From: an uncultured Alphaproteobacteria bacterium
GTDB taxonomy: Bacteria; Pseudomonadota; Alphaproteobacteria; UBA8366; JADFVY01
DNA length: 64,000 nt
Reading direction: 5' to 3'
Assembly (NCBI GenBank): GCA_947259105.1
Contig: CAMYKU010000003.1
Coordinates: forward strand, 1 to 64,000
Notes under the pieces: generated by a model
Databases searched by the model: none
Told to the model about the DNA's origin: nothing
What the model saw: the letters and a program-made list of their open reading frames with translations, nothing else
Position numbers and translations under genes: made by a program
Shown: positions 2,951 to 21,820 of the stretch, piece by piece
Layout: the number at the start of each line of letters is the position of its first letter
Numbering within the stretch: the first letter of the stretch is position 1

Positions 2951-4033
2951 TCAGGCGCCCCCGCCGGCCAGTTTCTCTTCCATCCAGTCGGCGACCAGCG
3001 GGCGGTACTTGTAGGCGATGTTGTTGCAGACGTGGTTGCCGTCCGGATACTCGACCCATTCGGCAAGCGGCCCCGCCATCTCGGCGACCTTGCGCGCGTC
3101 GGCGACCGGAAAGATGCGGTCGCGCCCGCCGTGGACGACGAGGACCGGGCAGTCCGGCAGGGTTACGCCGCGCAGCGAGAAGGCGCGCGCCCGCGCCGCG
3201 GTGTCATCCATCGTCTCGCCGCCGAGCGCGAAGCCCATATTGGCGCGATAGACCTCGGGCAGGTCGTCCCAGATGGCGCCGAGATCGAAGAAGCCGTTCA
3301 TGCTGGCGACCGCGGCGATCTCCGGCACCGCGGCGGCGGCCTGCAGCGCGAGGTGGCCGCCGAACGCCATGCCCATGACGCCAATGCGGCAATCGAGCCC
3401 GTGCGTTTTGCGCAGCGCGTCCAGAACCGCGGCCAGCACCGACCCCCATTCGGCGCGCAGGTGGTGGTCCTTGCGTCCCTCGCCCTGGCCCGGCCCGTCG
3501 AAGCTGAAGGTGGCGAGGCCACGGGCAAGGAAATGCGCCTCCATGCTGCCGAATTCCTCTTTCGTCGAATCGGAGCCCGGCACCAGGATGACAAGCGGCG
3601 CCGCGGCATCTGCCGGGCGGCGCAGGTAGCCCTTCAGGAGGCCGCCCTCGAACGGCGCCGAAACCGCCTCCGCCGGCGGCTGCAGCAGCGGGGCGGCGCG
3701 GGCGTAGGCGGCCACCTTGCGGTCCGCCGCCGCCCATTTCTGTGTCAGGTCGTCGAAGAACATGAACTGGCCGAAATGGTAGAACAGCGCCGCCCGCCGG
3801 TAGGCCTCGCCGGCCGTCACCAGGCGCCCCGCGCCCTCCGCCGCCTCGCCCATCGCGAGGTGCCGGGCGCCCTCTGCGGACCAGGTCCTGCACCAGTTCG
3901 GCCATTCGCCGGTCTCCTCGATGAGGCGCACGATGTCGCCATGCGTGAGGCCCGCCACCATCATGCGCGGCAGCCAGTGCCCGACGACCTGCTGCAACCT
4001 CGTGGACTGCGGTTCGGCATTCATCTCGGTCAT
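2951..4033 (-). CDS. Alpha/beta hydrolase paralog with nucleophile Ser replaced by Ala
   Basis: The 360-residue protein has an alpha-helical N-terminal cap (about residues 1-115) and a C-terminal alpha/beta-hydrolase core. This layout is that of the FrsA/2,6-dihydroxypseudooxynicotine hydrolase group. It overlaps its 360-residue twin by 4 nt (ATGA). The oxyanion region ('FDGPGQGEG'), the acid Asp in 'HGGRDRIFP' and the His in 'DGNHVCNN' are retained. The nucleophile elbow reads 'GMAFGG' where the twin has 'GVSLGG', so Ser is Ala near residue 223. It may be a pseudoenzyme or regulatory partner, or it may use a non-serine mechanism. Confidence 0.8.
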   Translation of the reverse strand: MTEMNAEPQSTRLQQVVGHWLPRMMVAGLTHGDIVRLIEETGEWPNWCRTWSAEGARHLAMGEAAEGAGRLVTAGEAYRRAALFYHFGQFMFFDDLTQKWAAADRKVAAYARAAPLLQPPAEAVSAPFEGGLLKGYLRRPADAAAPLVILVPGSDSTKEEFGSMEAHFLARGLATFSFDGPGQGEGRKDHHLRAEWGSVLAAVLDALRKTHGLDCRIGVMGMAFGGHLALQAAAAVPEIAAVASMNGFFDLGAIWDDLPEVYRANMGFALGGETMDDTAARARAFSLRGVTLPDCPVLVVHGGRDRIFPVADARKVAEMAGPLAEWVEYPDGNHVCNNIAYKYRPLVADWMEEKLAGGGA

Positions 4034-5112
4034 CCTCCGTCAGCGGGGACCGCCCGCAGCTGTTCGGCCATCCAGTCCGCCGTCAGCGCATCGTAGCAGT
4101 GCCGCCGATTATTGGCGTTGTGGCCGCCCCGCTCGACGACGAGGAAGCGCGTCGGCCCGCGCGCCTCCTCGGCGATGCGCGCCGTCGATTCGGGCGGAAC
4201 GATGGTATCGTCGTCGCCGGTCACCAGGAACAGCGGGCAGGTGATCCTGGACGCCACCCCCTCGAGGGACAGCTGTCTGGACGCCTCCTCGGCCTCCGCC
4301 ATGGTCGCGCTGCCGGAACGCTGCCGGAACGCGGCCATGGTCATCGGCGTGGACTTCGCCCAGCCGTCGTGCCTGTTGTATGGCCCCGAAAGCCCGATGC
4401 AGGCCTTGATGCGTTTCTCGAAGGCGGCGGCGCGCGGCGCGTAATAGCCGCCGAGACTGACCCCCCAGATGCCGATCCGCGCGTGATCGAGGTCGGGACG
4501 GGTCTCGATGAAGTCCACGACCGCGGTGACCGCCACCTCGTAATCGCCGCGGATGACGAAATCGTACTCGCCCTCGCCCTGGCCCGGGCCGTCGAAGGCC
4601 AGCGTCGCGATGCCGCGGCGCAGGAAGCCGGCCTCGTTGGTGCCCATTTCCTCCTTCGCCGAGTCGAGGCCGGCGCACATGATCATCACCGGCGGCCGCT
4701 TGACGCCGCGCGGCTTCCGCAAGACCCCATACAGCGCCTTGCCCTCGTATGGGATTTCCACCCGCTCGCCGGGCGGGTCGAGGTAGGGCAGCGCCAGCGT
4801 ATGGCACGCCACCGCCTTCCCGTGCGCTTCCTTGAGCTGAACCATGTCGTCGACGAAGAGAAACTTGGCGAAGTGATAGAGAACGGCCGCCCGCTGCAGA
4901 TGCTCGCCCGCACTTATGCCATGACCGTCCGCCAGCGCCTGCCGCCCGGCTTCTTCGTGCTCCGCGGCGCGCGCCGACCATGCCCGGCACCAGTCGTCCC
5001 AGCGCTCGAGCCCGCCGGTCACCTCCTGGAAGTCCGAGAGGGGCACGCCGTTGACGACAAAACGGCCGGCCCATTTGGCGATCGCGATGTCGATCAGTCG
5101 GTCTCTGGCCAT
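4030..5112 (-). CDS. Alpha/beta hydrolase, 2,6-dihydroxypseudooxynicotine hydrolase/FrsA-like
   Basis: The 360-residue protein has an N-terminal helical domain and a C-terminal hydrolase core. A full triad is visible: Ser in 'GVSLGG' (about residue 219), Asp in 'TGDDDTIVP' (about 302) and His in 'ERGGHNANN' (about 331). The 'FDGPGQGEG' loop is also typical. Characterised relatives cleave C-C or ester bonds of nitrogen-containing aromatic breakdown products. It opens the four-gene minus-strand run hydrolase, hydrolase-like, M24, BKACE and is translationally coupled to the next gene. A repeat element separates it from the GST upstream. Substrate unknown. Confidence 0.8.
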   Translation of the reverse strand: MARDRLIDIAIAKWAGRFVVNGVPLSDFQEVTGGLERWDDWCRAWSARAAEHEEAGRQALADGHGISAGEHLQRAAVLYHFAKFLFVDDMVQLKEAHGKAVACHTLALPYLDPPGERVEIPYEGKALYGVLRKPRGVKRPPVMIMCAGLDSAKEEMGTNEAGFLRRGIATLAFDGPGQGEGEYDFVIRGDYEVAVTAVVDFIETRPDLDHARIGIWGVSLGGYYAPRAAAFEKRIKACIGLSGPYNRHDGWAKSTPMTMAAFRQRSGSATMAEAEEASRQLSLEGVASRITCPLFLVTGDDDTIVPPESTARIAEEARGPTRFLVVERGGHNANNRRHCYDALTADWMAEQLRAVPADGG

Positions 5113-5160
5113 CTCCGGTCTCCCTGTTCCTCACTGTCTTTAGATAATTCGGCCTGCCGC

Positions 5161-5354
5161 TTGTTTTGCGCCGCCTGCGGCGGCAGGGCATATCGCGTCC
5201 ACCCCCTCCCCAACCCCTCCCCCGCCAGCGGGAGAGGGGCTTTGATTTTCCCGGCCGGAGTACGACATTCAGCCCCTCTCCCGCCTGGGCGGGGGAGGGG
5301 TTGGGGAGGGGGTGGGAAAACCAACGACTCGCCGGCAAGGCCGGCGCCGAACAA
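5161..5354. repeat. Palindromic intergenic repeat element, copy 2
   Basis: This second, diverged copy of the element at 383-546 fills most of the 289-bp gap between the GST and hydrolase genes. Its outer ends are imperfect inverted repeats (left GCGCCGCCTGCGGCGGCA, right the GCCGGCAAGGCCGGCGCC type). The inner arms are again CCCCCTCCCCAACCCC and its complement. Copies of this pair at two places in one 5-kb stretch suggest a dispersed genomic repeat. The hairpin could attenuate transcription between liv/GST and the hydrolase genes. Confidence 0.7.
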
Positions 5355-5401
5355 GCAGTTGCCGAAGTTTCGACGACTTCTCAATTGCAGGATCCCGTAT
5401 T

Positions 5402-6175
5402 TCACGTGACACCCGGCGGCTCCGCTTTCGGCTTGCCGCCGATGCCTTCGTATTGTTCGGACAGCCGCGATCCGAAATAGAAGGCGGCGGCGCAGGACGG
5501 CCGCGCCCGCATCCGCGCATACCAGTCGACGACGGCGGGGCGGTCCGCCCACAGGCGGCCGAGTCCCAGATCGTCGGCGCGGTCGATCAGCGGCAGCATG
5601 CAGAAATCGGCCAGCGTGATCCGGCCGCCGGCCAGCCATTCCTGATCGCGCAGCGACGCCTCCATGCGGGACGCGGTGAGGGAAACCCGTTCCTCGGCCT
5701 CGTCCAGCGTCTCCCGGCTGAAGCCGGTGCGGGCGAACTTGCGGAAGAAATGCTTGCGCAGCGGCTTGGCGGCCGCGATGCGCTCGAACTCCGCCGCGTC
5801 CATTTCCCTGAAGTGTTTGGCGAACGCCTGGTTGTAGGACGGGTAGCGCACCGCCGGGGTCGGCACCTCGTCGATGAAACGCTGCCAGATCCGCATGCGC
5901 GCGCGCCCGGCCGGATCGGCCGGCGTCAGCCCGGTCTCCGGAAACACCTCGTCGAGATACTCGACGATCACGGACGATTCGATGATCACCTCGCCGTCGT
6001 GGATCAGCGCCGGCACCACGCCGTTCGGGTTGATCTTCAGGTAGTCCTCCTTCAGCTGGTCGCCGGCGAACAGCCTGAGCCGGTGGTCGGCGAAGTCCAG
6101 GCCCTTCTCGTGCAGCACCAGCCGGACTTTCTGGCTGCAGGTCGACTGCGCCGCGTTGTACAGCTCAAGGGTCAT
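5402..6175 (-). CDS. Glutathione S-transferase family protein
   Basis: The protein is 257 residues from the ATG at 6175; the track's longer frame starts earlier without need. A thioredoxin-like N-terminal domain (about 1-80) carries 'STCSQKVRLVL' and the conserved 'NPNGVVPALIHDG' and 'ESSVIVEYL' motifs that bind glutathione. An all-helical C-terminal domain follows with 'RITLADFCMLP'. Members of this broad class conjugate, isomerise or reductively cleave electrophilic or ether substrates. It lies 28 nt downstream of the hydroxyisobutyrate-dehydrogenase-like gene on the same strand, so it probably belongs to the same catabolic transcript. Reaction not predictable. Confidence 0.85.
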   Translation of the reverse strand: MTLELYNAAQSTCSQKVRLVLHEKGLDFADHRLRLFAGDQLKEDYLKINPNGVVPALIHDGEVIIESSVIVEYLDEVFPETGLTPADPAGRARMRIWQRFIDEVPTPAVRYPSYNQAFAKHFREMDAAEFERIAAAKPLRKHFFRKFARTGFSRETLDEAEERVSLTASRMEASLRDQEWLAGGRITLADFCMLPLIDRADDLGLGRLWADRPAVVDWYARMRARPSCAAAFYFGSRLSEQYEGIGGKPKAEPPGVT

Positions 6176-6203
6176 GCCGCCCTCCTCCGCGGGCCCTGTC
6201 CCG

Positions 6204-7145
6204 CTAATCCTCAAGTCCGGTCGGAACCTCGACATCCTCCGGCTTCAGCTCGAGGTTCGAGGCCTTGGCCTGCAGCTCCAGGAGCGTCGCGAAGTCGATG
6301 TCGGTATAGCCGTTGCCGATCAGCGCCTGGATGATCTCGCGGGTCGTCGAGGCGACCTGCATCGGCACCTCGAACTTGCGCGCCGCGGACAACCCGAGAT
6401 CCATGTCCTTGCGCAGCAGCTGCGGCGTGAACGTCGTGGTGTAGTCGAGCTTGACCAGGGCCGGCGCCTTGTACTGCGTGAACATCGAGCCCATGACGCT
6501 CTTGTTGATGAACTCCAGCATCGCATGGCGCGGCACGCCGGCCTTCTCCGCCAGCACGGTGATCTCGACCAGCGACTGGATGACGACGCCAAGGAAGACG
6601 TTGTGGCAGATCTTGCAGAAGCGGGCCAGCTCGCCCTCGCCGACATAGCTGACGCCGCGGCCGAGGCATTCCAGATACCCCACCACCTCGTCATAGGTCT
6701 CCTTCGGTCCCGAGGCGACGATGCTCAGCTTGCCGGCCTTTACCACCTTGCCGTTGCCGCTGACCGGTGCGGCGAGGAAGGCGGCGCCGACCTTGCCGAC
6801 GTCGGCGCGCGCCTGGGCCGAGGCGTCTTCCGAGACGCTGGTGCAGTCGATGAAGATCTTCGGCGGCCCACCGCTTCCCGAAAGCACCCCGTTCGGCCCG
6901 GAGATTACCTCCAGCAGGTCGTCCGACGTCGCCACCATGGTCATGATGATATCGCGGCCCGCGAGGTCCGCGGGCGTATCGACGATGGACGCTCCGGCGG
7001 CGGTCAGGGGTTCGGCCTTGCTGCGTGTGCGGTTGTACACCGCGATGTCGCAGCCGGCCTTGGCCAGGCGTTCGGCCATCGGATAGCCCATCCGGCCGGC
7101 GCCGATCCAGCCGATGCTGTGTCCTTTAGGGTCGAAGTCTGTCAT
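6204..7145 (-). CDS. 3-hydroxyisobutyrate dehydrogenase-family NAD(P)-dependent oxidoreductase
   Basis: The protein is 313 residues from the ATG at 7145. An N-terminal Rossmann fold with 'IGWIGAGRMGYPMA', the substrate-binding 'APVSGNGKVVKAGKLS' loop and the catalytic Lys in 'RFCKICHNVFLG' identify a beta-hydroxyacid dehydrogenase. The family oxidises 3-hydroxyisobutyrate, tartronate semialdehyde, 6-phosphogluconate and similar hydroxy acids. It follows livM by 44 nt and precedes the GST gene, so it should act on a product of the imported compound. It is distinct from the second family member at 34510-35400. Confidence 0.85.
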   Translation of the reverse strand: MTDFDPKGHSIGWIGAGRMGYPMAERLAKAGCDIAVYNRTRSKAEPLTAAGASIVDTPADLAGRDIIMTMVATSDDLLEVISGPNGVLSGSGGPPKIFIDCTSVSEDASAQARADVGKVGAAFLAAPVSGNGKVVKAGKLSIVASGPKETYDEVVGYLECLGRGVSYVGEGELARFCKICHNVFLGVVIQSLVEITVLAEKAGVPRHAMLEFINKSVMGSMFTQYKAPALVKLDYTTTFTPQLLRKDMDLGLSAARKFEVPMQVASTTREIIQALIGNGYTDIDFATLLELQAKASNLELKPEDVEVPTGLED

Positions 7146-7189
7146 CGATTTCCATCCTGCGTTTCTGGAAGAATCCTTGAATGAAGCCG

Positions 7190-8227
7190 TCAGTCCCAAT
7201 CGAGAATTCGCGGCAGCCTGCCCCTTCTGCGCAGCGTGCCGACGATCCCGTTCGGGAAGAACATCAGGGCCAGGATCATGATGATGCCGGTCCCGAGAAT
7301 GTTGATCTGGCTGGCGCCGAACTGGCTGACGAAAAACTCGTTGAAGGCGATCAGCAGCACCGTGCCGACGACCGGGCCGGCCACCGTGCCCTTGCCGCCG
7401 AGGATGCACATCAGCACCATGTTGGCGGCGACCAGGATGATCAGGAAGATGTTGGGGCGGATGTAGGTCATGTACTCGCCCCAGATCGCCCCCGCCGTGC
7501 CGACGAAGAACGCGCTGATCGCGAACGCCAGGATCTTGTAGAAGCGCGTGTCGATGCCGGCGCTTTCGGCCTTGATCTCGTCCTGCGAGATCGCCCGCAG
7601 GCCGAGCCCGAATTTCGAATGCCGTATGGCGTACGATGCGACCAGGCTGGCCACCGCGATGACCAGCATCGCATAGTAGTAGGGGATCTTGACGTACTGC
7701 ACCGGCAGCTCCATCCGCGGCAGGCTGATCCCGTTGGAGCCGCCGACGAAATCCCAGTTGTCGAACAGGATCCGCGCCACCATCAGCAGTGCGATCGACG
7801 AGATGATGAAGGCCGGCCCCCGGACCCGCAGGGTAATGAATCCGACGCAGAAGCCGACGGCCATCGCGACCACGCCGGCCAGCGGCGCGGTCAGGAACGA
7901 CGAGATGCCGTAGCTGGCCAGCAGCATGCCGGAGACATAGCCGCCGATGCAGAAGAACACGTTGTGCCCGATCGAGATATAGCCCGCAAAGCCGCCGAGG
8001 ATGTTCCAGCCCGAGGTCATCGCGACGTACATGAACGCGTACAGCATCAGGTGCAGGGGATAGTTCCAGTTCCCTCCGGTCAGTTGCACCAGCGGAAACA
8101 GCGCGAGGGCGGCCAGTATGACCAGCAGTGCCGGCCATGAGCCGCCACGGCGGCGGGTGCCGGCAAGAGCCGCGTTGTACGCATCGCGCTCGGCGAGGAC
8201 GGTGTCGATGTTTTGCCGGTCGGTCAT
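7190..8227 (-). CDS. livM: Branched-chain amino acid-type ABC transporter permease LivM
   Basis: This 345-residue inner-membrane protein has a hydrophilic N-terminus of about 28 residues followed by multiple helices. LivM hallmarks are 'GGFAGYISIGHNVFF', 'LRVRGPAFIISSIAL', the EAA-like 'GLGLRAISQDEIKAESAGI' loop and 'LGGKGTVAGPVVG'. It forms the heteromeric pore with LivH. Only 7 nt separate the LivH stop from this start. The neighbouring enzymes suggest the substrate need not be an amino acid, since Liv systems also import aromatic acids, amides and urea. Confidence 0.9.
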   Translation of the reverse strand: MTDRQNIDTVLAERDAYNAALAGTRRRGGSWPALLVILAALALFPLVQLTGGNWNYPLHLMLYAFMYVAMTSGWNILGGFAGYISIGHNVFFCIGGYVSGMLLASYGISSFLTAPLAGVVAMAVGFCVGFITLRVRGPAFIISSIALLMVARILFDNWDFVGGSNGISLPRMELPVQYVKIPYYYAMLVIAVASLVASYAIRHSKFGLGLRAISQDEIKAESAGIDTRFYKILAFAISAFFVGTAGAIWGEYMTYIRPNIFLIILVAANMVLMCILGGKGTVAGPVVGTVLLIAFNEFFVSQFGASQINILGTGIIMILALMFFPNGIVGTLRRRGRLPRILDWD

Positions 8228-8234
8228 CCCGGGC

Positions 8235-9107
8235 CTACTCCATCTTCTCGCCGAACAGGCCCTGCGGGCGCACCAGCAGAATCAGGAACAGCGCCAGGTA
8301 GAAGGTCATCATCGACCAGGTCGAGCCGAAATAGGAGCCAACGAACGCGGACACGATCGCCAGCAGGAACGCGCCGACCACGGCGCCCATCAGGCGTCCC
8401 ATGCCGCCGAGCACGATCAGCGACATCAGGAGCGCGATCCATTCCCAGTGGCGCGCCGGGAAGAAGCTGAAGATGAAGCTGATCAGCGCGCCCGAGGCGC
8501 CGGCGAGGCCGATGCCGATGCCGAAGGTTATGGTCGAGACCAGGCCGACATTGACGCCCAGCAGCTGGGCCGCCTCGCGGTTCTGGGTGGTCGCCCGGAT
8601 CGCGTATCCGAAGCGCGTGAACTTGAGGAAGGCGACCAGCGCGCCGATCAGGGCGATGCTGATCAGCCCGGCGTAGAACTGGCCCTTCGGCAGGAAGAGG
8701 TCTCCCAGCATGACGGCTTCCACCGCATAGGACGGCGAGGTGATGCGCTGGATATTGCCGAACAGGACGCCGAGCAGGCCATCGAACGACAGCGCCACCG
8801 CGAAGGTGAGGAGCACGGTCATCTCCGAGTATTTCGCGCTGCTCGCCTCGCGCTCGAAGATCAGCTTGTAGACGACGATGCCAAGGCAGAACAACGCGAT
8901 CATGGCGATCGGCATCGAGAGGATCGGATCGAGCCCGACCAGCGTGAACAGCCAGTAGCTGATGTAGGCGCCGATAATGATGAAGACCGGGTGGGCGAGG
9001 TTGATGATCTTCATGACGCCGAAGATCAGCGTCAACCCCGATGCCATGAGGGCGTAGACGCCGCCGAGCACGGCCCCGATCAGCAGGATCTGCAGGATAT
9101 CAGTCAT
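8235..9107 (-). CDS. livH: Branched-chain amino acid-type ABC transporter permease LivH
   Basis: The protein is 290 residues from the ATG at 9107, which shares one base with the livF stop (TGATG); the longer track start would run into livF. LivH motifs are 'GAVLGGVYALMASGLTLIFG' near the start, 'INLAHPVFIIIGAYISY', the 'FGYAIRATTQNREAAQLLGVN' cytoplasmic loop and 'VLGGMGRLMGAVVGAFLL'. It is one half of the membrane pore of the Liv transporter. It is translationally coupled to livF upstream and livM downstream. Confidence 0.9.
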   Translation of the reverse strand: MTDILQILLIGAVLGGVYALMASGLTLIFGVMKIINLAHPVFIIIGAYISYWLFTLVGLDPILSMPIAMIALFCLGIVVYKLIFEREASSAKYSEMTVLLTFAVALSFDGLLGVLFGNIQRITSPSYAVEAVMLGDLFLPKGQFYAGLISIALIGALVAFLKFTRFGYAIRATTQNREAAQLLGVNVGLVSTITFGIGIGLAGASGALISFIFSFFPARHWEWIALLMSLIVLGGMGRLMGAVVGAFLLAIVSAFVGSYFGSTWSMMTFYLALFLILLVRPQGLFGEKME

Positions 9108-9847
9108 CACGCCGCGCCCGCGCGTTTGCCGAGGTAGAGCTCGCGAATGCGCGGATCCTCGAGAATGCCATCCGCCGGCCCCTCGAACATCGTCCTGCCG
9201 AGGTCGAGAACGCATCCGAGGTCCGCGTTGGACAGGCCGACCACGGCGTTCTGTTCGACGATGATGACCGTGATCCCCTTGTCCTTGAGCAGCCGGATGA
9301 TGTCGAAGACCTGGCTGACGATCCGCGGCGCCAGGCCGAGTGACGGCTCGTCCAGCATGACGATGCGCGGGCGCAGGACCAGGGTCCGGCCCATCGTCAG
9401 CATCTGCTGTTCGCCGCCGGACAGGGATTTGGCGCGCTGGCCGCCGCGTTCGCGCAACACCGGGAACGCCTCCAGCACCTCGTCGAGACGGCGATCCAGA
9501 TCGGCCCTGTCGGTGATGATGTAACCGCCCATCCGCAGGTTTTCGCGCACGCTCATGTCCGGGAACAGGGCGCGCTCCTGGGGCACGAAGCAGATGCCGC
9601 GCCGCAGGATCTCGTCCGGCCGCAGCCCGGCGATCGATTCGCCGTCGAACACCACCTCGCCGGCGCGGGCCGGCAGCAGCCCGGAGACCACCTTCAGCAA
9701 CGTCGACTTGCCGGCGCCGTTCGGTCCGATGATGCAGTGGGTGCGTCCTTCCTCGACGGTGATCCCGGCGCCGTTCAGGATCGCCGGCCCGCGGCCGTAA
9801 CCGGCGACCACGTCGCGCACTTCCAGGAGAGCAGTGGATTCAGGCAT
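9107..9847 (-). CDS. livF: ABC transporter ATP-binding protein LivF
   Basis: The protein is 246 residues from the ATG at 9847, overlapping the livG stop by 8 nt. Walker A 'GPNGAGKSTLL', signature 'LSGGEQQML' and Walker B 'RIVMLDEPSLGLAP' are intact, as is the H-loop equivalent. Gln in 'IIVEQNA' occupies the switch position, as is normal for LivF. The order livK-G-F-H-M is a standard arrangement. It powers uptake with LivG on the cytoplasmic face. Confidence 0.92.
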   Translation of the reverse strand: MPESTALLEVRDVVAGYGRGPAILNGAGITVEEGRTHCIIGPNGAGKSTLLKVVSGLLPARAGEVVFDGESIAGLRPDEILRRGICFVPQERALFPDMSVRENLRMGGYIITDRADLDRRLDEVLEAFPVLRERGGQRAKSLSGGEQQMLTMGRTLVLRPRIVMLDEPSLGLAPRIVSQVFDIIRLLKDKGITVIIVEQNAVVGLSNADLGCVLDLGRTMFEGPADGILEDPRIRELYLGKRAGAA

Positions 9848-10580
9848 CTGCGCTCTGCGCCCCCAGATAGGCGTCGAGCACCCGCCGGTCGGCCTGGATG
9901 GCATCCGGCTCGCCCTCGGCGATCACCGAGCCGTACGCCATCACCACCACCTTGTGGCTGATGCTCATCACCAGCTCTATGTTGTGTTCGACGATGAGCA
10001 CCGTGAGGCCGCCGCGGTTGAGCTCCTGGATATGGCCGACGATGGCCTCCAGGAGGGTCGGGTTGACGCCGCCGGCGGGCTCGTCCAGCAGGATGATCTT
10101 CGGCTCCGACATCAGCAAGGCGGCGAAATCCATCAGCTTCTTCTGGCCGAAGGAAAGGTTGCGCGCTTCCTCGTGGGCGAGGCGCGTAATGCCGACGAAA
10201 TCGAGGAGCTCCATCGCCCGCGCCTCCTCGGCGCTGCCGATGGCCTTGCGGAACAGGCCGCCTATGCCTGTGACCCGGGACTGCACGATCAGGTTTTCCA
10301 GCACCGTCAGATCCTCGAGAGTGCGGGTGATCTGGAAGGTGCGGCTCATTCCGCGCCTTGTGATCTGGTGCGGGCGCAGGGAATCGATCCGCTTTCCCTC
10401 GAGCCAGACCTCGCCCGAATCCGAGGCCAGCGTGCCGCTGATCAGGTTGAAGACGGTCGTTTTGCCGGCGCCGTTCGGGCCGATCAACGCCGTGATCGAA
10501 CCCTCGTCCACCGCGAACGAGCAGTCGTTCACCGCGTGGATGCCGCCAAAGGATTTGCTCAGACGGCGAACCTCGAACAT
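9840..10580 (-). CDS. livG: ABC transporter ATP-binding protein LivG
   Basis: The protein is 246 residues from the ATG at 10580, preceded by a GAGGG-like site; the track's 10604 start would be a TTG. Walker A 'GPNGAGKTTVFN', signature 'LSFGQKKLMD', Walker B 'KIILLDEPAGGVNP' and switch His in 'IVEHNIELVM' are present. LivG is typified by the 'RGMSRTFQITRTLEDLTVLENL' region. It is separated from livK by about 100 nt containing a hairpin, which could lower expression of the membrane components relative to the binding protein. Confidence 0.92.
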   Translation of the reverse strand: MFEVRRLSKSFGGIHAVNDCSFAVDEGSITALIGPNGAGKTTVFNLISGTLASDSGEVWLEGKRIDSLRPHQITRRGMSRTFQITRTLEDLTVLENLIVQSRVTGIGGLFRKAIGSAEEARAMELLDFVGITRLAHEEARNLSFGQKKLMDFAALLMSEPKIILLDEPAGGVNPTLLEAIVGHIQELNRGGLTVLIVEHNIELVMSISHKVVVMAYGSVIAEGEPDAIQADRRVLDAYLGAQSADA

Positions 10581-10641
10581 GCCCTCAACCCTATGGACCC
10601 GCAAGGAATACGAACGGCCGGACAGGCCACCGGACCCGGCG

Positions 10642-10667
10642 CGCCGCGATCCGACCGGACCGCGGCG
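10642..10667 (-). promoter_or_regulatory. Hairpin between livK and livG
   Basis: Complementary arms CGCCGCG and CGCGGCG flank a 12-nt loop in the roughly 100-nt gap after livK. No U-run follows, so it is not a classical terminator. Hairpins placed after a binding-protein gene commonly stabilise its mRNA or attenuate the downstream genes; that role is inferred here. Confidence 0.4.
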
Positions 10668-10681
10668 TCCGGATTACCGGC

Positions 10682-11968
10682 TCACCACTGAGGCTTCGGA
10701 TAGAGGATCGGCGACGTGCCCTCGAACTCATCCGTCGGATAGATGAATCTGAGCTCCCCGCCCTGCCACTGGGTCATCAGATGCGACTTGTCGACCGGCA
10801 GGCCAACGTCGTCCCAGTGGAACGGGCCGAGGATGGTTCTGACCGGATCGGCCGCAGTCCGCGCGTGCATCCAGTCGGCGATCTTCTTGTTGTCGGTCGA
10901 GCCGGCGCCCCTTATCGCCTGTTCCATGCCCTGGCACAGGGCAAACGGGATCGCGCCGTCCTCGTCCGGCTCGGCGCCGTACCTGGCCTTGAAGGCGGCG
11001 ATGAAGTCCTTGTTCCCGAAGGGCTTGCCCGAGAGGACGCCCTTCCAGCCCGCGGCCGGGTGCCAACTCGAATGCACCATGATGCCCTCGGACGCCTTGC
11101 CGACGCTGTCGAGGTACTCGTTCTGGGTGCCCTGGCTCATATAAATCGCCTTGGGCTGGTATTTGAGCGTCTGCAGGGCGCGGGTCAGCTGCACCGCCTC
11201 TTCCGCCGAGGCGGTCAGCGCCACCAGGAATTCGGCGTTGCTGCGCTTGATCGAATTGGCCAGCGTCACCCAGTCCGAGAAGCCCTCTTCCGGCCATTTC
11301 TCGTTGAGCACCACCTTCATGCCGAGATTGGCGAGGTTTCCGGGCGCCAGGTTGGCGACGACCTTGCCGCTGCCCGGGAGCTTGACCTCGCTGCCGAGCA
11401 GGCCGGCCGCGATGCCATTGGCGAAGAAGTCGTCGGCCCGCACGATCGCGACCGTCTTCGGCATCTTGGATGTGTCCACGAGGTCCGTGAGCGTGCGCTG
11501 CACCGTCTTGCCGATGTACTCGGCCGCGTTCTGCTGGAAGTAGAACAGGTTCTTGTGGCCGATGCTGTAGATCCTGAGCGCGCCGCCCGAGGGGATCGGG
11601 TTCACCATGCCGTAGCGTTCGGTGATCGCGCTGACCGGGAAGGTCAGCTTGCTCGAGAAGGTGCCGAAGATCACGTCGACCTTGTCGACGTTGATCATGC
11701 GCTCGTACTGGCTGATCGCGGTTTCGGTGTCGGAGCGGTTGTCGCTGACGATCAGGTCGATTTTGCGCCCGAGAATGCCGCCATTGTCGTTGATCATGCC
11801 GACGCAAAGCTCGTAACCGACCTTGTGCTTGTCGCCGGTCACCGAGAACCCGCCGGTCAGCGGCAGCGAGGCGCCGACCTTGATCGGCTCCGCCGCGAAG
11901 GCCGCGCCCGAGATCGCCGAGACAACGAGCGTCGCGGCCGCAAGAAACGGTATGAGTCTGTGTTTCAT
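10682..11968 (-). CDS. livK: Liv-type ABC transporter periplasmic substrate-binding protein
   Basis: The protein is 428 residues from the ATG at 11968, which has GGGAGGA about 5 nt upstream. A Sec signal peptide ends at about residue 27 ('SGAAFAAEP'). The mature part starts with 'IKVGASLPLTGGFSVTGDKHKVGYEL', the usual entry of a type I periplasmic (LivJ/LivK, Peripla_BP_6) fold. At over 400 residues it is longer than leucine-binding proteins (about 345), like binding proteins for aromatic or amide compounds. It is the first gene of the block and is divergent from a LacI-type regulator across a 316-bp control region. Confidence 0.88.
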   Translation of the reverse strand: MKHRLIPFLAAATLVVSAISGAAFAAEPIKVGASLPLTGGFSVTGDKHKVGYELCVGMINDNGGILGRKIDLIVSDNRSDTETAISQYERMINVDKVDVIFGTFSSKLTFPVSAITERYGMVNPIPSGGALRIYSIGHKNLFYFQQNAAEYIGKTVQRTLTDLVDTSKMPKTVAIVRADDFFANGIAAGLLGSEVKLPGSGKVVANLAPGNLANLGMKVVLNEKWPEEGFSDWVTLANSIKRSNAEFLVALTASAEEAVQLTRALQTLKYQPKAIYMSQGTQNEYLDSVGKASEGIMVHSSWHPAAGWKGVLSGKPFGNKDFIAAFKARYGAEPDEDGAIPFALCQGMEQAIRGAGSTDNKKIADWMHARTAADPVRTILGPFHWDDVGLPVDKSHLMTQWQGGELRFIYPTDEFEGTSPILYPKPQW

Positions 11969-12284
11969 CCTGTCCTCCCAGTACAACATGCAATGACACG
12001 GGTGGTCCCGTATTTTCTTGGAACTTTCTGGTGTCGAAAACGCCCGCCGGAACCGACCGAAAGCCTTCCCAAAACCGGCTAAAAGCCTTTCCGCGATCAG
12101 CCAAAGGCCATCTCACAACCGGCTAAAAGCCTTTTCGCAATCGTTTGCACGTGCTAGGCTGAAAATACTGCCGCCGCGCGCGCCAAGTCAAGCGCTTTGT
12201 CCCGTTCTCCGGGTTTCCATTACTGCGGACGGGTGGGCCGAAAACCGGCCGGGGGTGCTGTCCTGCCGGCAGCCATCCGGTTCA
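11969..12284. promoter_or_regulatory. Divergent control region between livK and LacI-type regulator
   Basis: The 316-bp gap holds no gene I can support. Its centre (about 12054-12150) contains four imperfect tandem units of 22 bp, described separately, followed by TTGCACGTGC with the palindrome GCACGTGC near 12146. The livK-proximal end is a conventional ribosome-binding site. Regulation of the whole catabolic block by the adjacent LacI-family protein is likely from position. Confidence 0.5.
12054..12142. repeat. Four tandem 22-bp repeats, probable operator array
   Basis: The core AAAGCC or AAAGGCC recurs at about 12060, 12082, 12103 and 12126, a 22-bp period or two DNA helical turns. Units 2 and 4 are nearly identical (CCGGCTAAAAGCCTTT), and each holds the inverted repeat GGCT-AAA-AGCC. 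Same-face spacing suits cooperative binding of a regulator. The LacI-type gene at 12285 is the obvious partner, but its binding here is inferred. Confidence 0.6.
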
Positions 12285-13352
12285 ATGTCGAGTGCCGCGT
12301 TTATGGTCGATAGATCCCAACGAGCAACCGCCCGCAAGGCAACGACGCTCAAGCAACTGGCGGCACATGTCGGTGTCCATGTCTCGACGGTGTCGCGCGC
12401 GCTCAACCCGGAGACTAGGAACCTGATCGGGCCGGAGGTCGCAAAAAGGGTTCTCGCCGCCGCCAACGAACTGGGCTACGTGCCGAATTCGATGGCCGCC
12501 GCATTGCGCACGGGCCAGTCGCGGACCGTCGGTATCCTGATTCCGGATCTGATGAATCCCGTTTTTCCGCCCTTTATCCGCGGTATCCAGGATACGCTCG
12601 ACGGCGCCGGCTACACCGCAATCATTGCCAATTCCGACGGCGACAAGGATTACGAACGTGTCATCGTGCAGAAGATGCAGGCGCGGTTCGTGGCCGGCCT
12701 GATCATGGCGACCGCCCTTTACCGGGACGATCCCGCGGTCGGGGAATGCATCGAAAAGGGCATCCCCGTCGTGCTCATCAACCGGGGCGTCGACAACCGG
12801 GAGATCAGCGCCGTGGTCAGTGACGACGGGGCCGGGATCGCCGCCGCCGTCGAACATCTGGTGCGGCTCGGGCACCGGCGGATCGCCCATGCGGCGGGCC
12901 CGCCGGAGACATACACCGGCATGATGCGGCGCCGGGCGTTCCTGAACGCGATGCAGGCCAGCGGCCTGCCGGCGGACGAGGACCTGATCGTCTTCGCATC
13001 CGGCTATACGGTTCCGGCCGGGCGGGAGGCTCTCGCCGCGCTGCTGGAGCGCGGCAAGCCCTTCTCGGCGCTGATCGCCGCCAACGATCAGCTCGCCCTG
13101 GGCGCCCTGGACGGCCTGGCCGAGGCGGGGTTGCGGGTGCCGCGCGACGTCTCGCTGGTCGGCTTCAACGACATGCCGCTGGTCGACCGCATCGATCCGC
13201 CGCTGACCACACTGCGCATACAGCATTATGAAATGGGTGCGGAGGCGGCGCGCATCCTGCTCGACGAACTGGCGGACCCGCAGCGCGACCGCCGCACCGT
13301 GATGCTGGAGCCGCAACTGATCGTGCGCGGCTCGACGGCCCCGGCCACCTGA
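12285..13352 (+). CDS. LacI-family transcriptional regulator of the liv/catabolic block
   Basis: The protein is 355 residues from the ATG at 12285; an alternative ATG lies 18 nt later. The N-terminal LacI helix-turn-helix reads 'TLKQLAAHVGVHVSTVSRAL' (about residues 20-40), followed by the hinge 'GYVPNSMAAALRTGQ' and a periplasmic-binding-protein-like effector domain ('VGILIPDLMNPVFPPFIRGI', 'LIAANDQLALGALDGL', 'SLVGFNDMPLVDRIDPPLTT'). It is transcribed divergently from livK, so it probably represses or activates that operon in response to the imported compound or an intermediate. Confidence 0.88.
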   Translation: MSSAAFMVDRSQRATARKATTLKQLAAHVGVHVSTVSRALNPETRNLIGPEVAKRVLAAANELGYVPNSMAAALRTGQSRTVGILIPDLMNPVFPPFIRGIQDTLDGAGYTAIIANSDGDKDYERVIVQKMQARFVAGLIMATALYRDDPAVGECIEKGIPVVLINRGVDNREISAVVSDDGAGIAAAVEHLVRLGHRRIAHAAGPPETYTGMMRRRAFLNAMQASGLPADEDLIVFASGYTVPAGREALAALLERGKPFSALIAANDQLALGALDGLAEAGLRVPRDVSLVGFNDMPLVDRIDPPLTTLRIQHYEMGAEAARILLDELADPQRDRRTVMLEPQLIVRGSTAPAT

Positions 13353-13567
13353 CCGAATCCGGTCGCCGGGAACGGCCGGCCGCGACGGGTGGGCGGCCGA
13401 CGGCCGGTCCCGCCTTTCAGGACACGTTTGCCGCGCCAACGGGCAACAGCCCTGCGCGAGCGGCGTGTATCGCCCGCCGCCGCCGTAAAGAATTTCTTAA
13501 TACTAAGGAATAATTTACGAGCCCCTACGTTTTACAGTTACGTGTTTGGGCAAAATCGGCGGACCCG

Positions 13568-13759
13568 ATGAAGTATCTCACGATGTTCTTCGCTTCGTTA
13601 CGGATGGTGAAAGCGCCAGACAGCGGCCATTTCGCGCATGATTTGGAGCGCTGGACGACACGGATCGACGAGCTTTGTCCCGAAGACACGGCCGGCCGGT
13701 TCACGGCCGAGGACTCGTACGAAGAGACCCGCACCGTCACGGTGCCGAAGGCCGCCTGA
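13568..13759 (+). CDS. Possible small hypothetical protein (63 aa)
   Basis: This ORF begins MKYLTMFFASLRMVK and ends in a charged, Glu/Thr-rich tail with no recognised domain. It lies just after an AT-rich stretch that could supply a promoter and is followed by a strong hairpin at 13826, which is consistent with a small monocistronic gene. There is no clear Shine-Dalgarno site before the ATG. Nothing else supports it, so it may be a chance ORF. Confidence 0.3.
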   Translation: MKYLTMFFASLRMVKAPDSGHFAHDLERWTTRIDELCPEDTAGRFTAEDSYEETRTVTVPKAA

Positions 13760-13825
13760 AGCAGGCCACGGCTCGTGGTGGATGCAGGCGCGACGAACCC
13801 GGAAATGGGCGCCCGTCGCGCCACG

Positions 13826-13852
13826 CCAGGCGCCCGGGTAGGGGGCGCCTGG
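13826..13852 (+). terminator. Strong stem-loop, probable terminator
   Basis: A perfect 9-bp stem, CCAGGCGCC and GGCGCCTGG, closes a 9-nt loop, followed by CACCCTTTTCC. The stem and short T-run fit a rho-independent terminator for the LacI gene or the small ORF upstream. Its symmetry would also allow action on the opposite strand. Confidence 0.6.
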
Positions 13853-14048
13853 CACCCTTTTCCGGCCAATTCACAGCGCCCCCGGACCGTTGCGTGGCGA
13901 TCACCACACTAGCTTCCTCCGATCACAAACGCGGTGTTCGCAAGTCGCCGGCCGTCGTCTCGAATTGACAATCCTGCCGCCGCGGCGGGATAATTCCTGC
14001 GCACCGCGGCGGACCGGACGCCTTTGGCCGCGGCGCAAGGAGGAATGG

Positions 14049-14705
14049 ATGTATCTCGGCCTCGACGACGTACGGCCCGCGGTGGTCGCCATCGACCTGC
14101 ATCGCGGGCACATGGATATGGACGTGGCGACCCTGCCGGCGCCGCCCGAGGTGGCGGCGCGGGTGGTCGCCGCGAACCTCGCCTTCAACAATCGTTGCCG
14201 TCCGCTCGGCATCCCGATAATCCATGTCGTCTCGCAGTATCGCGATTCGGCCGAGACCGCGGGCAATCCGTACTGGAAGACCAAGGTGGATCGCGCCGGC
14301 GACACGCGGGCGAACCAGTTCCGCCACAACCTCGCCGGCAGCCCCGGCACCGAGATCATGCCCGGGCTGTTCGCCGAGGGCGACCTGGTGATCGACACCA
14401 AGAAGCGCAAGGACTGCTTTTATGCGACCGACCTTGATTTCATGCTGCGGGCGCGCGGCGTCAACGTGCTGCTGCTGACCGGGGTGAACACCAACAGCTG
14501 CGTGCTGTGCACGGCGGCGTCGGCGAACACGCTGGACTACCTGCCGATCGTCGTGGAGGACTGCGTCGGCTCGATGGACGGCGAGGACCGGCATGAGGCG
14601 GCGCTCGTGTGCATCCGCACCGCGCTCGGCTTCGCGATGCCCCAGGACGCGGTCTTCGCGGCGCTGGCCGCCAATGGCGTTGGCGCCGGGGCGGCGGCGG
14701 AATAG
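14049..14705 (+). CDS. Isochorismatase-like cysteine hydrolase
   Basis: The protein is 218 residues from the ATG at 14049, with AAGGAGGA just upstream. The isochorismatase-like triad is visible: Asp in 'VVAIDLHRGH' (D16), Lys in 'VIDTKKRKDCF' (about 119) and Cys in 'GVNTNSCVLCTA' (C151). The family hydrolyses N-carbamoyl compounds, nicotinamide, ureidoacrylate, biuret and related amides through the Cys. It stands alone, with the sugar dehydrogenase gene starting 92 nt downstream on the same strand. The substrate is unassigned. N-carbamoylsarcosine- or biuret-type amidohydrolase activity is plausible but not shown. Confidence 0.82.
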   Translation: MYLGLDDVRPAVVAIDLHRGHMDMDVATLPAPPEVAARVVAANLAFNNRCRPLGIPIIHVVSQYRDSAETAGNPYWKTKVDRAGDTRANQFRHNLAGSPGTEIMPGLFAEGDLVIDTKKRKDCFYATDLDFMLRARGVNVLLLTGVNTNSCVLCTAASANTLDYLPIVVEDCVGSMDGEDRHEAALVCIRTALGFAMPQDAVFAALAANGVGAGAAAE

Positions 14706-14797
14706 GGGCCCCGAAAACCGCAGAAAACGCCGGTGCATGGGGTTGTTTCGCCCGGTTCGGGTGGCGGCCCTCGTGTTGGCGTGGGAGGCACACAGAG

Positions 14798-15937
14798 ATG
14801 ATCCCCAGAGAAGCATTGCACCGGGCGACGGCAGCCCTCGTCATCGCATCCCTGCCGTTCGCGACAGCCTGCGTCGCCGCCGAGACCTACCCTTCGGAGC
14901 ATTACAATTTGCGTCTCGTGACCGTCGCCGGCGGGCTCGAACATCCATGGTCGCTCGCCTGGCTGCCGGACGGCCGCATGCTCGTCACCGAGCGCGAGGG
15001 GCGCCTGCGCATCGTCACCGCCGACGGCGAAGTCTCGGCGCCGGTCGAAGGGTTGCCCGAGATCGCCGTGACCGGCCAGGGCGGTCTGCTCGACATTCTC
15101 GTCGCGCCGGACTTCGCAACCAGCCGGACGATTTATTTCTCCTTCTCCGAACCGGGCGAGGGCGGCCAGGGCACCGCCGTTGCGGCCGCCGAGCTTGACG
15201 GCGCGCGGCTCGCCAACCTCAGGATCCTGTTCCGCCAGCTCCCGAAGAGCGGCGGCGGCCGGCATTTCGGCTCGCGGCTGGTGCTGGCGCGCGACGGGAC
15301 GCTGTTCGTCACCGTCGGCGAGCGCGGCGAGGCCGAGCGCGCTCAGGACACCACGGTCAACCGCGGCCAGGTGGTGCGCATCCACACCGACGGAAGCATC
15401 CCCCGCGACAACCCGTTCGTCGGCCGCGCCGGCTACCGGCCCGAGATCTGGTCGTACGGTCACCGCAACCCGCAAGGCGCGGCGCTCCATCCGGAGACCG
15501 GCGAGCTCTGGATCAACGAGCACGGCGCCCGCGGCGGCGACGAGGTCAACATCCCGCGGGGCGGGCGCAACTACGGCTGGCCGGTCATCGCCTACGGTCG
15601 CCATTACTGGGGCGGAGAAATCGGCGAGGGCACGCACAAGGGGGGGATGGAGCAGCCGGTGCACTACTGGGACCCGTCGATCGCCCCGTCCGGCATGGCG
15701 TTCTATACCGGCGACAAATTTCCGGCATGGCGGGGCAATCTGCTGGTCGGCGCGCTCAAGTACCAGCTCGTCGCGCGGCTCGTGCTCGACGGCGAGACCG
15801 TCGTCGCCGAGGAGCGCATCCTCGAGGAGCTGGGCGAACGCATCCGCGACATCCGCCAGGGACCAGATGGATATGTCTACCTGCTGACCGACGATAGCGG
15901 CGGCCGTATCCTGCGCCTCGAGCCCGCGGGCGGTTGA
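14798..15937 (+). CDS. PQQ-dependent soluble aldose sugar dehydrogenase (YliI/Asd type)
   Basis: The protein is 379 residues from the ATG at 14798 with GGGAGG about 8 nt upstream; the larger track ORF starts inside the previous gene. A Sec signal peptide (about 1-28, 'ATACVAAETYPSE') sends it to the periplasm. The six-bladed glucose/sorbosone dehydrogenase beta-propeller is clear from 'GGLEHPWSLAWLPDGRMLVTER', 'GRHFGSRLVLARDGTLFVTVGERG', 'YGHRNPQGAALHPETGELW' and 'HGARGGDEVN'. It would oxidise aldoses with PQQ and pass electrons to the respiratory chain. No PQQ biosynthesis gene is in the window. Confidence 0.88.
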   Translation: MIPREALHRATAALVIASLPFATACVAAETYPSEHYNLRLVTVAGGLEHPWSLAWLPDGRMLVTEREGRLRIVTADGEVSAPVEGLPEIAVTGQGGLLDILVAPDFATSRTIYFSFSEPGEGGQGTAVAAAELDGARLANLRILFRQLPKSGGGRHFGSRLVLARDGTLFVTVGERGEAERAQDTTVNRGQVVRIHTDGSIPRDNPFVGRAGYRPEIWSYGHRNPQGAALHPETGELWINEHGARGGDEVNIPRGGRNYGWPVIAYGRHYWGGEIGEGTHKGGMEQPVHYWDPSIAPSGMAFYTGDKFPAWRGNLLVGALKYQLVARLVLDGETVVAEERILEELGERIRDIRQGPDGYVYLLTDDSGGRILRLEPAGG

Positions 15938-16185
15938 ATGGCCGGCGCCGAATCCATTTGGATAGCGCTCCAGGCAGGGTATCTGCCGAGGGGCCCGGGA
16001 CCGGGTGCACACCGTGACGGCTGTTGGTTGAAGTCGCCGCCACGGCGTGCGGTCCCGTGGGCAATTGGGAAGAAGGACCGTCGATGACGCCGAAGAGGAC
16101 CCTGCCAGGCACCGCATCGGCCTCATCCATGGCGGCCAGACTGGCAGATTGCCGGCCGAAACGCATTGACATGCGTCAACGGGAT
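15938..16185. other. Convergent intergenic gap
   Basis: About 250 bp lie between the sugar dehydrogenase stop and the cysteine-rich gene on the other strand. I see no convincing ORF, terminator hairpin or RNA gene. Confidence 0.4.
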
Positions 16186-16413
16186 CTACGATTTGCGCTC
16201 GGATCGTTGCCGCACGGGACCCTCTGTGACTTCGGCAATGTCGGATCGCCCGGTCAGGCAGACCGGGCACACGCAGCCGCTGGCGCCGGTGCGGATGATC
16301 ATCGCCTCGTAATCGAAGTCGCGGTCGACCTTCAGGCACCAGCAATCGGCCGATCCGTCGCAGTTGAAGCCGCGCCCGCAATTGGGGCAACGGGTGCGCT
16401 GCGGCGTCGTCAT
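16186..16413 (-). CDS. Small cysteine-rich CWC-family protein
   Basis: The 75-residue protein has 'CPNCGRGFNCDGSADCWC' at residues 9-26 and a further 'GCVCPVCLTG' near residue 47. The CxxC...C...CWC spacing matches the Cys_rich_CWC family, small proteins presumed to bind a metal (zinc ribbon-like) with no known function. It starts 10 nt after the stop of the 175-residue protein upstream on the same strand and is probably co-transcribed with it. Confidence 0.7.
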   Translation of the reverse strand: MTTPQRTRCPNCGRGFNCDGSADCWCLKVDRDFDYEAMIIRTGASGCVCPVCLTGRSDIAEVTEGPVRQRSERKS

Positions 16414-16423
16414 GGCCGGCCGG

Positions 16424-16951
16424 TCACGCGCCGGCAGTGCCGTCGAACCGCCCCATCACCACCTCGGTGAACAGCGCGTTGACCAGCACGGCCCGCAGTG
16501 CCGCCTCCTCGGACACCTTCTCCGGGTCAAGCGATCCGTCCTCGCGCATCCGCACCGCCGTCTCGCGCGCCGCCAGAACCACCGGGTCCAGATGGCTGGC
16601 CGCCGAACCCGCTATGAACCGGACCAGCTTGTCGGCGGCCTTCATGGCGTCCAGATATTCGAGATCGCCCTCGTTCTGCAGGACGCCGACCCGGTCTTTC
16701 ATGTGATCGACGCCGGCGCCCGATGCGTCGCCAAGCGCGTGCAACACCGCATCGGCGGCGGCGATCGGTTCCAGATCGTCGCCGTGCCGTCCCTGTGTCA
16801 GTTGCAGGGCCGCGCAGAGCAGGAATCCGAGCACATAGGCGTCATCCCAGAACCCGCTCGCCGGCGGAATCGCCTTCATCCGGTCGTCGACGAAGACTGC
16901 GATCACCTCGTCCGCGGTTTCCCGCGCCTGCGCTTCGATCGATTCGCTCAT
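16424..16951 (-). CDS. Hypothetical acidic helical protein
   Basis: The protein is 175 residues from the ATG at 16951 (MSESIEAQ), the better of two in-frame ATGs because the upstream extension is low-complexity. It is mostly alpha-helical and acidic, with no signal peptide or membrane segment. No family is recognised. Features are 'SGFWDDAYVLGFLLCAALQL' in the first third and regular charged helices afterwards. It is probably cytosolic and pairs with the CWC protein gene downstream. Confidence 0.6.
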   Translation of the reverse strand: MSESIEAQARETADEVIAVFVDDRMKAIPPASGFWDDAYVLGFLLCAALQLTQGRHGDDLEPIAAADAVLHALGDASGAGVDHMKDRVGVLQNEGDLEYLDAMKAADKLVRFIAGSAASHLDPVVLAARETAVRMREDGSLDPEKVSEEAALRAVLVNALFTEVVMGRFDGTAGA

Positions 16952-17059
16952 CGCGGCCTCGCTTTCGTTCGCGACCTGATTACCATCGGCGGGCGGCGAT
17001 TGCACGCCCGACCGGCGCCCGCCGCGGGACCGGTTTGCGATCCCGCGAGGACACGGGTG

Positions 17060-17797
17060 CTAACTGGACACCGTCCCGAACACGCGCTGCAGCAGTTGCG
17101 TCGTGCGCTTGGCCGGATCGTGCCGGATCGCCGCCTCCTCCTTGCCGACATAGTGGAACAGCCCGTCCAGGCTCTTGCCGACCGTATAGCGCGTCAGGTC
17201 GGCCTTGACATCGGGCACGAAGGGCACGGCCTTGTAATTCGCCATCATCCGGTCGTAGGAGCGGATCGCCCCGACCTCATTCATCGAATCCAGAACGATC
17301 GGCGTGAAGCGTTGGGTCAGCGGGGTCGTCATCTTTCCGCGGAAATACCGTGTCGCGGCGTCGTCCGGGCCCTGCCAGATCGTGCGCACGTCCTGCAGGG
17401 TCATCTCGGTGATCGCCTGCCAGAACACCGCCTTGGCTTCCGGCGCCGCGCGCTCGGCGGCCCGGTTCAGCTTCAACTCCAGATCCGCGGTCAGCTTGTT
17501 CAGGCCGATCCTGGTCAGCACGTCATGGACCTTGTCCAGGTCGCCGGGCAGTGGAATACGGATCGCGGGATCCGCATAGTAGCCGTCCAGCGTTCCGACC
17601 TGGGCGACGACACGCTCTGTCCCGATCTTCAGGGCCTCCTTAAGCCCGGCGCCGATCTCGCCGTCAGTGAGCGGACTGCCCAGCCCGGCGCTGTCCAGCA
17701 CCGATTGCAGGTTCAGCGTCCCGCCACCCAGCGTCGTCTGGCAGCCCGCCAGTGCGGCGCCCGACAGCATCATGATAAAGCTCCGTCGACCGATCAT
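17060..17797 (-). CDS. DUF4197-family lipoprotein
   Basis: The protein is 245 residues from the ATG at 17797 (MIGRRSF). A signal peptide with lipobox 'ALAGC' places a lipidated Cys near residue 18. The mature part matches the DUF4197 pattern: 'LTDGEIGAGLKEALKIGTERVV', the central 'DLELKLNRAAERAAPEAKAVFWQAI', and 'YFRGKMTTPLTQRFTPIVLDSM' with a Lys-Leu-Leu-rich C-terminus. DUF4197 proteins are periplasmic or membrane-anchored and uncharacterised. It stands alone, followed on the same strand by the acidic protein gene. Confidence 0.8.
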   Translation of the reverse strand: MIGRRSFIMMLSGAALAGCQTTLGGGTLNLQSVLDSAGLGSPLTDGEIGAGLKEALKIGTERVVAQVGTLDGYYADPAIRIPLPGDLDKVHDVLTRIGLNKLTADLELKLNRAAERAAPEAKAVFWQAITEMTLQDVRTIWQGPDDAATRYFRGKMTTPLTQRFTPIVLDSMNEVGAIRSYDRMMANYKAVPFVPDVKADLTRYTVGKSLDGLFHYVGKEEAAIRHDPAKRTTQLLQRVFGTVSS

Positions 17798-17921
17798 CGT
17801 CGTCTCCCGCTGCTCGAACCTGCCGAATGATAACGGCAAACCCTTGCCTGCAGGTAAAGAGCCGGACAGCGGGATCAGGCGCAACGGCCGGCGTCCGGGC
17901 GGCGACAGCGAACACGTAGGT

Positions 17922-18344
17922 TCAGTATGGTCGCGGCTGGTCGAGGCAATCGTTGCCTTCGACGGTGTGGCCCACGATATAGCCGTCCCTGTCGATTTCG
18001 AAATTCGTCACGCATGCGTACCGGAGTGTCGTAACGGGTGTTTGGCGGGTGATCGGAACGACCACCTTCTCGCCGTCGACAACCCGCGTCTCGGTGACCG
18101 TGTAGAGCTCGCCGCCCTGTCTTTCCGTACGGCTCCGGCGCCATGTCAGAATGCGGTTTCCATTCCTCATGTCGTAGACGGCGTCCGGCGCACCCCATTT
18201 GAGAGCCAACTTACGGTCCGTCATGCCGATCCAGTCGTCCAGCCCGGCCGCCGGCTCGTCGCCGCCGTCGTCCGGCCCGCCGCATCCGGCAGCCGCCAGC
18301 ACGAGGAGAAATCCCGACAGAATGGCGACCGTACGAAAAGTCAT
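17922..18344 (-). CDS. Small putative lipoprotein
   Basis: The protein is 140 residues from the ATG at 18344 (MTFRTVAIL). A signal peptide ends in lipobox 'AAAGC' at about residue 20, then comes an Asp/Gly/Glu-rich linker ('GGPDDGGDEPAAG'). The remaining 90 residues have alternating strands ('KLALKWGAPDAVYDMRNGNRILTWRR') reminiscent of the BamE/SmpA-like fold that senses or tethers outer-membrane components. Sequence similarity is too weak to name a family. It is divergent from the LOG-family gene. Confidence 0.6.
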   Translation of the reverse strand: MTFRTVAILSGFLLVLAAAGCGGPDDGGDEPAAGLDDWIGMTDRKLALKWGAPDAVYDMRNGNRILTWRRSRTERQGGELYTVTETRVVDGEKVVVPITRQTPVTTLRYACVTNFEIDRDGYIVGHTVEGNDCLDQPRPY

Positions 18345-18469
18345 CGCGTCCTCAAAATCACAACCGCCAGCAACATCGCACGAATTGCCTTGCACGTCAC
18401 GCCACTAGGACTCCCTTCATAATTGCGTGTTACACAGGATCGCGAGGACCACGAAATGGAGAATTCAGG

Positions 18470-21464: not shown

Positions 21465-21476
21465 GATGCATCTCCA

Positions 21477-21764: not shown

Positions 21765-21799
21765 GGTAACCCTCTCTCAGGCCGTTCCGGCCGTGCAAA

Positions 21800-21820
21800 T
21801 ATACGATGAATTATCGTATA
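21800..21820. promoter_or_regulatory. Perfect inverted repeat TATACGAT-N5-ATCGTATA
   Basis: Two 8-bp arms match exactly around GAATT, 36 bp upstream of the DUF2849 start. A 21-bp symmetrical site in the promoter of a sulfite-reductase operon is most simply the operator of a dimeric regulator. I do not recognise the regulator; none is encoded nearby. The flanking DNA toward 21870 is strongly AT-rich for this genome. Confidence 0.6.

Follow-up and report, generated by a model that had tools for sequence, protein, structure and literature searches.

A conserved serine-to-alanine clade within the DHPONH/AntI-type C-C hydrolase family

The gene at positions 2951 to 4033 (minus strand) of a 64,000-nucleotide stretch of DNA from an uncultured alphaproteobacterium (contig CAMYKU010000003.1, positions 1 to 64,000; here called the window) belongs, judging from comparison with its homologues, to a distinct Ser-to-Ala clade within the 2,6-dihydroxypseudooxynicotine hydrolase (DHPONH)/AntI-type C-C hydrolase family. 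The pattern of conservation within this clade indicates that the Ala form is old and is maintained by selection. We consider it somewhat probable that the encoded protein is an active, Ser-independent enzyme that relies on a His-Asp dyad; C-C cleavage, although we hold it to be the likeliest chemistry, is a more tentative proposal.

The gene encodes a DHPONH-like alpha/beta hydrolase of 360 aa, identified from its open reading frame, its match to the DHPONH structure (PDB 2JBW), and an AlphaFold2 model. A first-pass annotation of the window had described an intact frame with a Ser-to-Ala replacement in the nucleophile elbow and with the Asp and His of the triad retained, and each of these points held on inspection. 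The frame is uninterrupted on the minus strand from 4033 to 2951; the elbow reads GMAFGG (G221-M222-A223-F224-G225-G226), with Ala223 encoded by GCG at 3365 to 3367 (read 3367-3365 on the coding strand); and Asp305 (3119 to 3121, minus strand) and His334 (3032 to 3034, minus strand) were located as the acid and base, respectively, of the retained dyad. In the oxyanion-hole loop, the protein has PGSDS in place of xGLDS, with Ser154 encoded by TCC at 3572 to 3574 (minus strand). The adjacent gene (4030 to 5112, minus strand) encodes a paralogue, also of 360 aa, that retains the elbow Ser (GVSLGG; Ser219, codon AGT at 4458-4456), and the two genes share the four bases ATGA at 4030-4033.

DHPONH is the best PDB match of both window proteins (E values of 2.8e-45 for the Ala protein and 5.9e-48 for the Ser paralogue), and the next sequence matches of the Ala protein are AntI, an Ayg1-type protein, and AbyA5, with esterases also among the matches. 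Modelled with AlphaFold2 (pLDDT 89.5, pTM 0.90), the Ala protein is likewise closest to 2JBW (TM 0.90, 30% identity), and it combines an N-terminal helical domain with an alpha/beta hydrolase core, giving full-length similarity to DHPONH/AntI-type C-C hydrolases. With DHPONH, an enzyme of nicotine catabolism in Arthrobacter, the Ala protein shares the whole-length fold, the helical domain, and the Asp and His residues, and the catabolic role of DHPONH resembles the catabolic setting described below; the two differ in that the Ala protein has Ala for the elbow Ser and Ser154 for an oxyanion-loop Leu, and in their gene clusters. The fold and a GxDS hinge loop are also common to the PlAntI/Ayg1-type polyketide-trimming lyases (6HXA, 8QD1, and 8QD7), a family of retro-Claisen C-C cleavage enzymes to which the Ala protein may be likened, although these use a Ser nucleophile and belong to a biosynthetic context. 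PlAntI and Ayg1 work through this Ser together with the oxyanion/hinge loop (GLDS in PlAntI), and in relatives the NH of the Leu at the site equivalent to Ser154 forms the oxyanion hole (PMC11165489).

We scanned GTDB species genomes with six peptide patterns and recovered 15 close relatives of the Ala protein, every one of which has GMAFGG. Because one of the six patterns included the elbow, we also searched further genomes with the whole protein, and the outcome was unchanged: relatives with at least 53% identity have Ala, and those with at most 44% have Ser. The resulting 21 distinct Ala homologues derive from Rhizobiaceae, Phyllobacteriaceae, Paracoccus, Dongia, and MAGs and have a mean pairwise identity of 68% (minimum, 51%). 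All 21 carry GMAFGG, and thus lack the GxSxG signature of the Ser nucleophile in DHPONH/AntI-type enzymes, and all 21 keep Asp305 and His334, the catalytic Asp and His of that family. The first-pass annotation had proposed that selection preserves the Ala form, and conservation in orthologues was the evidence it called for; Ala occupies the site in 21 of 21 and Ser in none, the elbow codon varies synonymously (GCC in 17, GCG in 3, and GCA in 1), and dN/dS is 0.085 to 0.18 across eight pairs, which points to purifying selection. In a phylogeny that also included 49 Ser-elbow rows, the Ala proteins form a single clade (SH-aLRT 100), with the same support after the elbow and oxyanion columns were masked, and on this tree Ser-to-Ala is one change of state. 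Our literature search found no description of this clade or of its gene cluster.

Since Ala is kept in 21 distinct homologues, sequencing error or chance can be ruled out as the origin of Ala223. The same homologues refute the idea that an ordinary esterase has lately been inactivated by mutation in the window genome, a reading to which we assign negligible probability and against which the intact frame also speaks. The observation in its favor is a damaged copy in a MAG of the same genus (locus L025, 8001-8687, from CP070634.1; genome G001), where the Ala orthologue contains a TAG and lacks about 120 internal codons, with the frame preserved across the deletion. Even this copy retains GMAFGG, however, and we drew no evidence from it, since N runs interrupt the record and the neighboring M24 gene runs into one of them; decay, assembly error, and masking are indistinguishable in this copy.

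Invariance of Asp305 and His334 is by itself modest evidence of function, because about 29% of alignment columns show no variation within the Ala clade. More informative are exactly six residues that are invariant in the clade and absent from all 49 Ser-elbow rows: S154, M222, A223, N246, N265, and L270. The first three lie in the oxyanion loop and the elbow, and S154 stands where the Ser-elbow rows have Leu (or Ala, Met, or Gly), so that GLDS becomes GSDS. This set of clade-fixed residues suggests that the active site has been remodelled rather than allowed to decay. A contrasting case is a distant homologue (L106; G698:C1:137411-138361) that has Gly at the elbow (GDGLG), has lost the catalytic His as well, and is probably a separate, noncatalytic protein. 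The idea that only Ala-elbow proteins have Ser154 is weakened by another distant homologue, L104, which has an elbow Ser and also has Ser at position 154 (GSDG), so that the link between Ser154 and the Ala elbow is strong and not absolute. The invariance of Ser154 in the clade and its absence from the 49 Ser-elbow homologues raise the question of whether Ser154, or another conserved side chain, has taken over the covalent role of the elbow Ser. We regard such a relocated nucleophile as highly improbable: in the alpha/beta hydrolase fold the oxyanion hole lies across from the His, which would leave Ser154 badly placed for activation, and L104 combines Ser at this position with an elbow Ser. Given its location in the oxyanion loop, Ser154 would more likely serve as a contact to the substrate or the oxyanion than as a nucleophile.

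The nearby Ser paralogue had led the first-pass annotation to suggest a nonhydrolytic role for the Ala protein, such as that of a heteromer partner, and a noncatalytic binding or regulatory function, with or without the Ser twin, draws on the lost nucleophile, the ATGA overlap with a paralogue that is apparently active, and a second case of colocation on a MAG contig (L013), though there the two genes are about 1.6 kb apart. Across other genomes the two genes often occur separately. The loci in Shinella, Ensifer, Rhizobium, Aminobacter, Paracoccus, and Dongia have the Ala gene without a Ser neighbor, and in seven sampled Ala-bearing genomes (G380, G714, G807, G944, G1004, G1029, and G1068) no second family member was detected at an E value of 1e-30 among the top candidates scored; a twin would be expected among these candidates, as the Ser twin in the window scores 2.4e-65. 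One of these genomes (G1068, locus L079) has the Ala gene together with M24, HIBADH-like, and glutathione S-transferase genes and no Ser gene. Conversely, Ser-clade genes occur with M24 and HIBADH-like genes and no Ala gene at two loci (L004 in G002 and L087 in G1090), and the family of the Ser-twin clade (f106) is also found without Ala. An obligate heteromer is ruled out by this separate occurrence, and a partner role is not supported in general. Asp, His, and the clade-specific residues are moreover fixed in the Ala clade, whereas the degenerate-looking L106 lost its His, and we therefore hold a noncatalytic role to be improbable. Nor are the two window genes the products of recent tandem duplication: because the proteins are only 37% identical and each groups with its own orthologues in a clade that is conserved apart from the other, the genes are best described, on phylogenetic grounds, as tandem paralogues. 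Their equal length, which the first-pass annotation had pointed out, is real in the window and appears coincidental, since orthologues of both vary in length.

The surrounding genes in the window, all on the minus strand, begin upstream with those of a branched-chain-type (Liv) ABC transporter: two ATP-binding proteins and a periplasmic binding protein (9107 to 11989; PF00005, PF12399, and PF13458), and two permeases (7190 to 9215; PF02653). These are followed by a 3-hydroxyisobutyrate dehydrogenase-like (HIBADH) NAD(P) enzyme of 313 aa (6204 to 7145; PF03446 and PF14833) and a zeta/MaiA-like glutathione S-transferase (GST) that scores below the MaiA cutoff (5402 to 6175), then the Ser and Ala genes, an M24-family (DddP-like) metallopeptidase-fold protein of 435 aa (1569 to 2876; PF00557, E = 8.9e-36), and a BKACE predicted to be a 3,5-dioxohexanoate:acetyl-CoA cleavage enzyme (584 to 1516; NF053538, 547.8 bits against a cutoff of 430). 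The mechanically called M24 open reading frame is longer (496 aa) and begins within the Ala gene, in a different reading frame (2951-3059); alignment of orthologues places its likely start at 2876. GC-rich long inverted repeats of similar sequence lie at 420-509 and 5199-5315 (34-nt arms, 94% complementary, and 52-nt arms, 79% complementary), flank the block from the Ser gene to BKACE, and look like an interspersed palindromic element.

Rhizobial loci have a conserved order, in which the Ala gene follows genes for an intradiol dioxygenase, an SDR, BKACE, a quinone-oxidoreductase-like protein, a cupin, and often a gamma-carbonic-anhydrase-like protein, commonly with a GST and a Liv transporter upstream and with acyl-CoA dehydrogenase, ETF, AraC, and molybdenum hydroxylase genes downstream. 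The cupin-like and gamma-carbonic-anhydrase-like genes sit immediately ahead of the Ala gene in many of these loci; at locus L012 they encode a 110-aa protein (7049-7381) and a protein at 7403-7945, respectively. On plasmid pShin-01 of Shinella sp. HZN7 (3796-21866; L046), a catabolic-type cluster that includes the Ala hydrolase also contains a Liv transporter, GST, intradiol dioxygenase, SDR, BKACE, cupin, gamma-carbonic-anhydrase-like protein, acyl-CoA dehydrogenase, ETF, and molybdenum hydroxylase. The Ala homologue of this strain has the accession WP_064332761.1. From gene content we infer that these loci are consistent with the breakdown of aromatics or diketones, where the Ala enzyme may remove or split an acyl side chain. 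DHPONH acts on an acyl side chain before ring cleavage (PMC3891541).

The clade-wide Ala, the retained Asp and His, the co-fixed residues, the purifying selection, the catabolic-type clusters, and the occurrence of the gene apart from the Ser twin are best accommodated by a changed mechanism, the other branch of the first-pass proposal. In such an enzyme, most likely a catabolic one, a covalent acyl-enzyme would not be needed; His334, held by Asp305, may act as a general base on the substrate or on a water, with an acidic enol or phenol or a 1,3-dicarbonyl as the type of substrate. The charged carbonyl would be held by the remodelled oxyanion loop, including Ser154, and by backbone amides of the elbow, and cleavage of the C-C bond may proceed in a retro-Claisen-like manner, assisted by water or a proton. 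We favor general-base catalysis by His334-Asp305 because Ser-less precedents exist within the alpha/beta hydrolase fold. In the HOD and AqdC dioxygenases the general base is a His-Asp dyad, and the elbow residue of native AqdC is Ala (PMC10548524); a review records that some C-C lyases dispense with Ser and that carboxy lyases use a D/E-H dyad (PMC11878206), which resembles the Ser-less dyad of the Ala protein, although those lyases belong to a different superfamily cluster. Counting against this explanation, the Ser245Ala variant of PlAntI yields no product, so the Ser matters in that enzyme, in which the Asp is dispensable (PMC11165489).

The main rival to such a C-C cleaving enzyme is a cofactor-free oxygenase, in which the His-Asp dyad would deprotonate an enolic or phenolic substrate and O2, bound in the oxyanion hole by the Ala elbow, would cleave the ring or chain, as in AqdC and HOD. 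These 2,4-dioxygenases, for which the elbow Ser is dispensable, have the alpha/beta hydrolase fold and the His-Asp dyad in common with the Ala protein, AqdC matches it in residue pattern at the elbow, and in HOD simulations Ala prolongs the residence of O2 at that site (PMC10548524); the loci, in addition, are clusters of an aerobic, aromatic type that include an intradiol dioxygenase. Sequence and fold, however, group the Ala protein with C-C hydrolases and place AqdC and HOD in a different subfamily, and no HOD or AqdC structure appears among the PDB sequence matches of the Ala protein. The polar Ser in the oxyanion loop of the clade may also favor water over O2, and we rate an oxygenase as unlikely. 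Returning to the His-Asp enzyme that we prefer, one possibility, which we offer tentatively, is that the clade represents a nucleophile-free branch of the C-C hydrolases in which the active site (S154, M222, A223, N246, N265, and L270) was refashioned for base catalysis by His and Asp, perhaps with a dependence on O2, and would record a natural, independent transition between covalent hydrolysis and noncovalent lyase or oxygenase chemistry, the latter being the derived state.

To our knowledge, working nucleophile-less enzymes of the alpha/beta hydrolase fold are confined to a few subfamilies, such as AqdC-type dioxygenases and some C-C lyases. The Ser-to-Ala clade described here is conserved inside the otherwise Ser-dependent DHPONH/AntI family, the residues co-fixed in it can be named, and the Ala gene and its adjoining Ser-elbow paralogue provide a clean pair in which to test a change from covalent hydrolysis to base-only catalysis. 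At the same time, the clade points to a catabolic-type cluster that is present in rhizobia and in other Alphaproteobacteria from soil.
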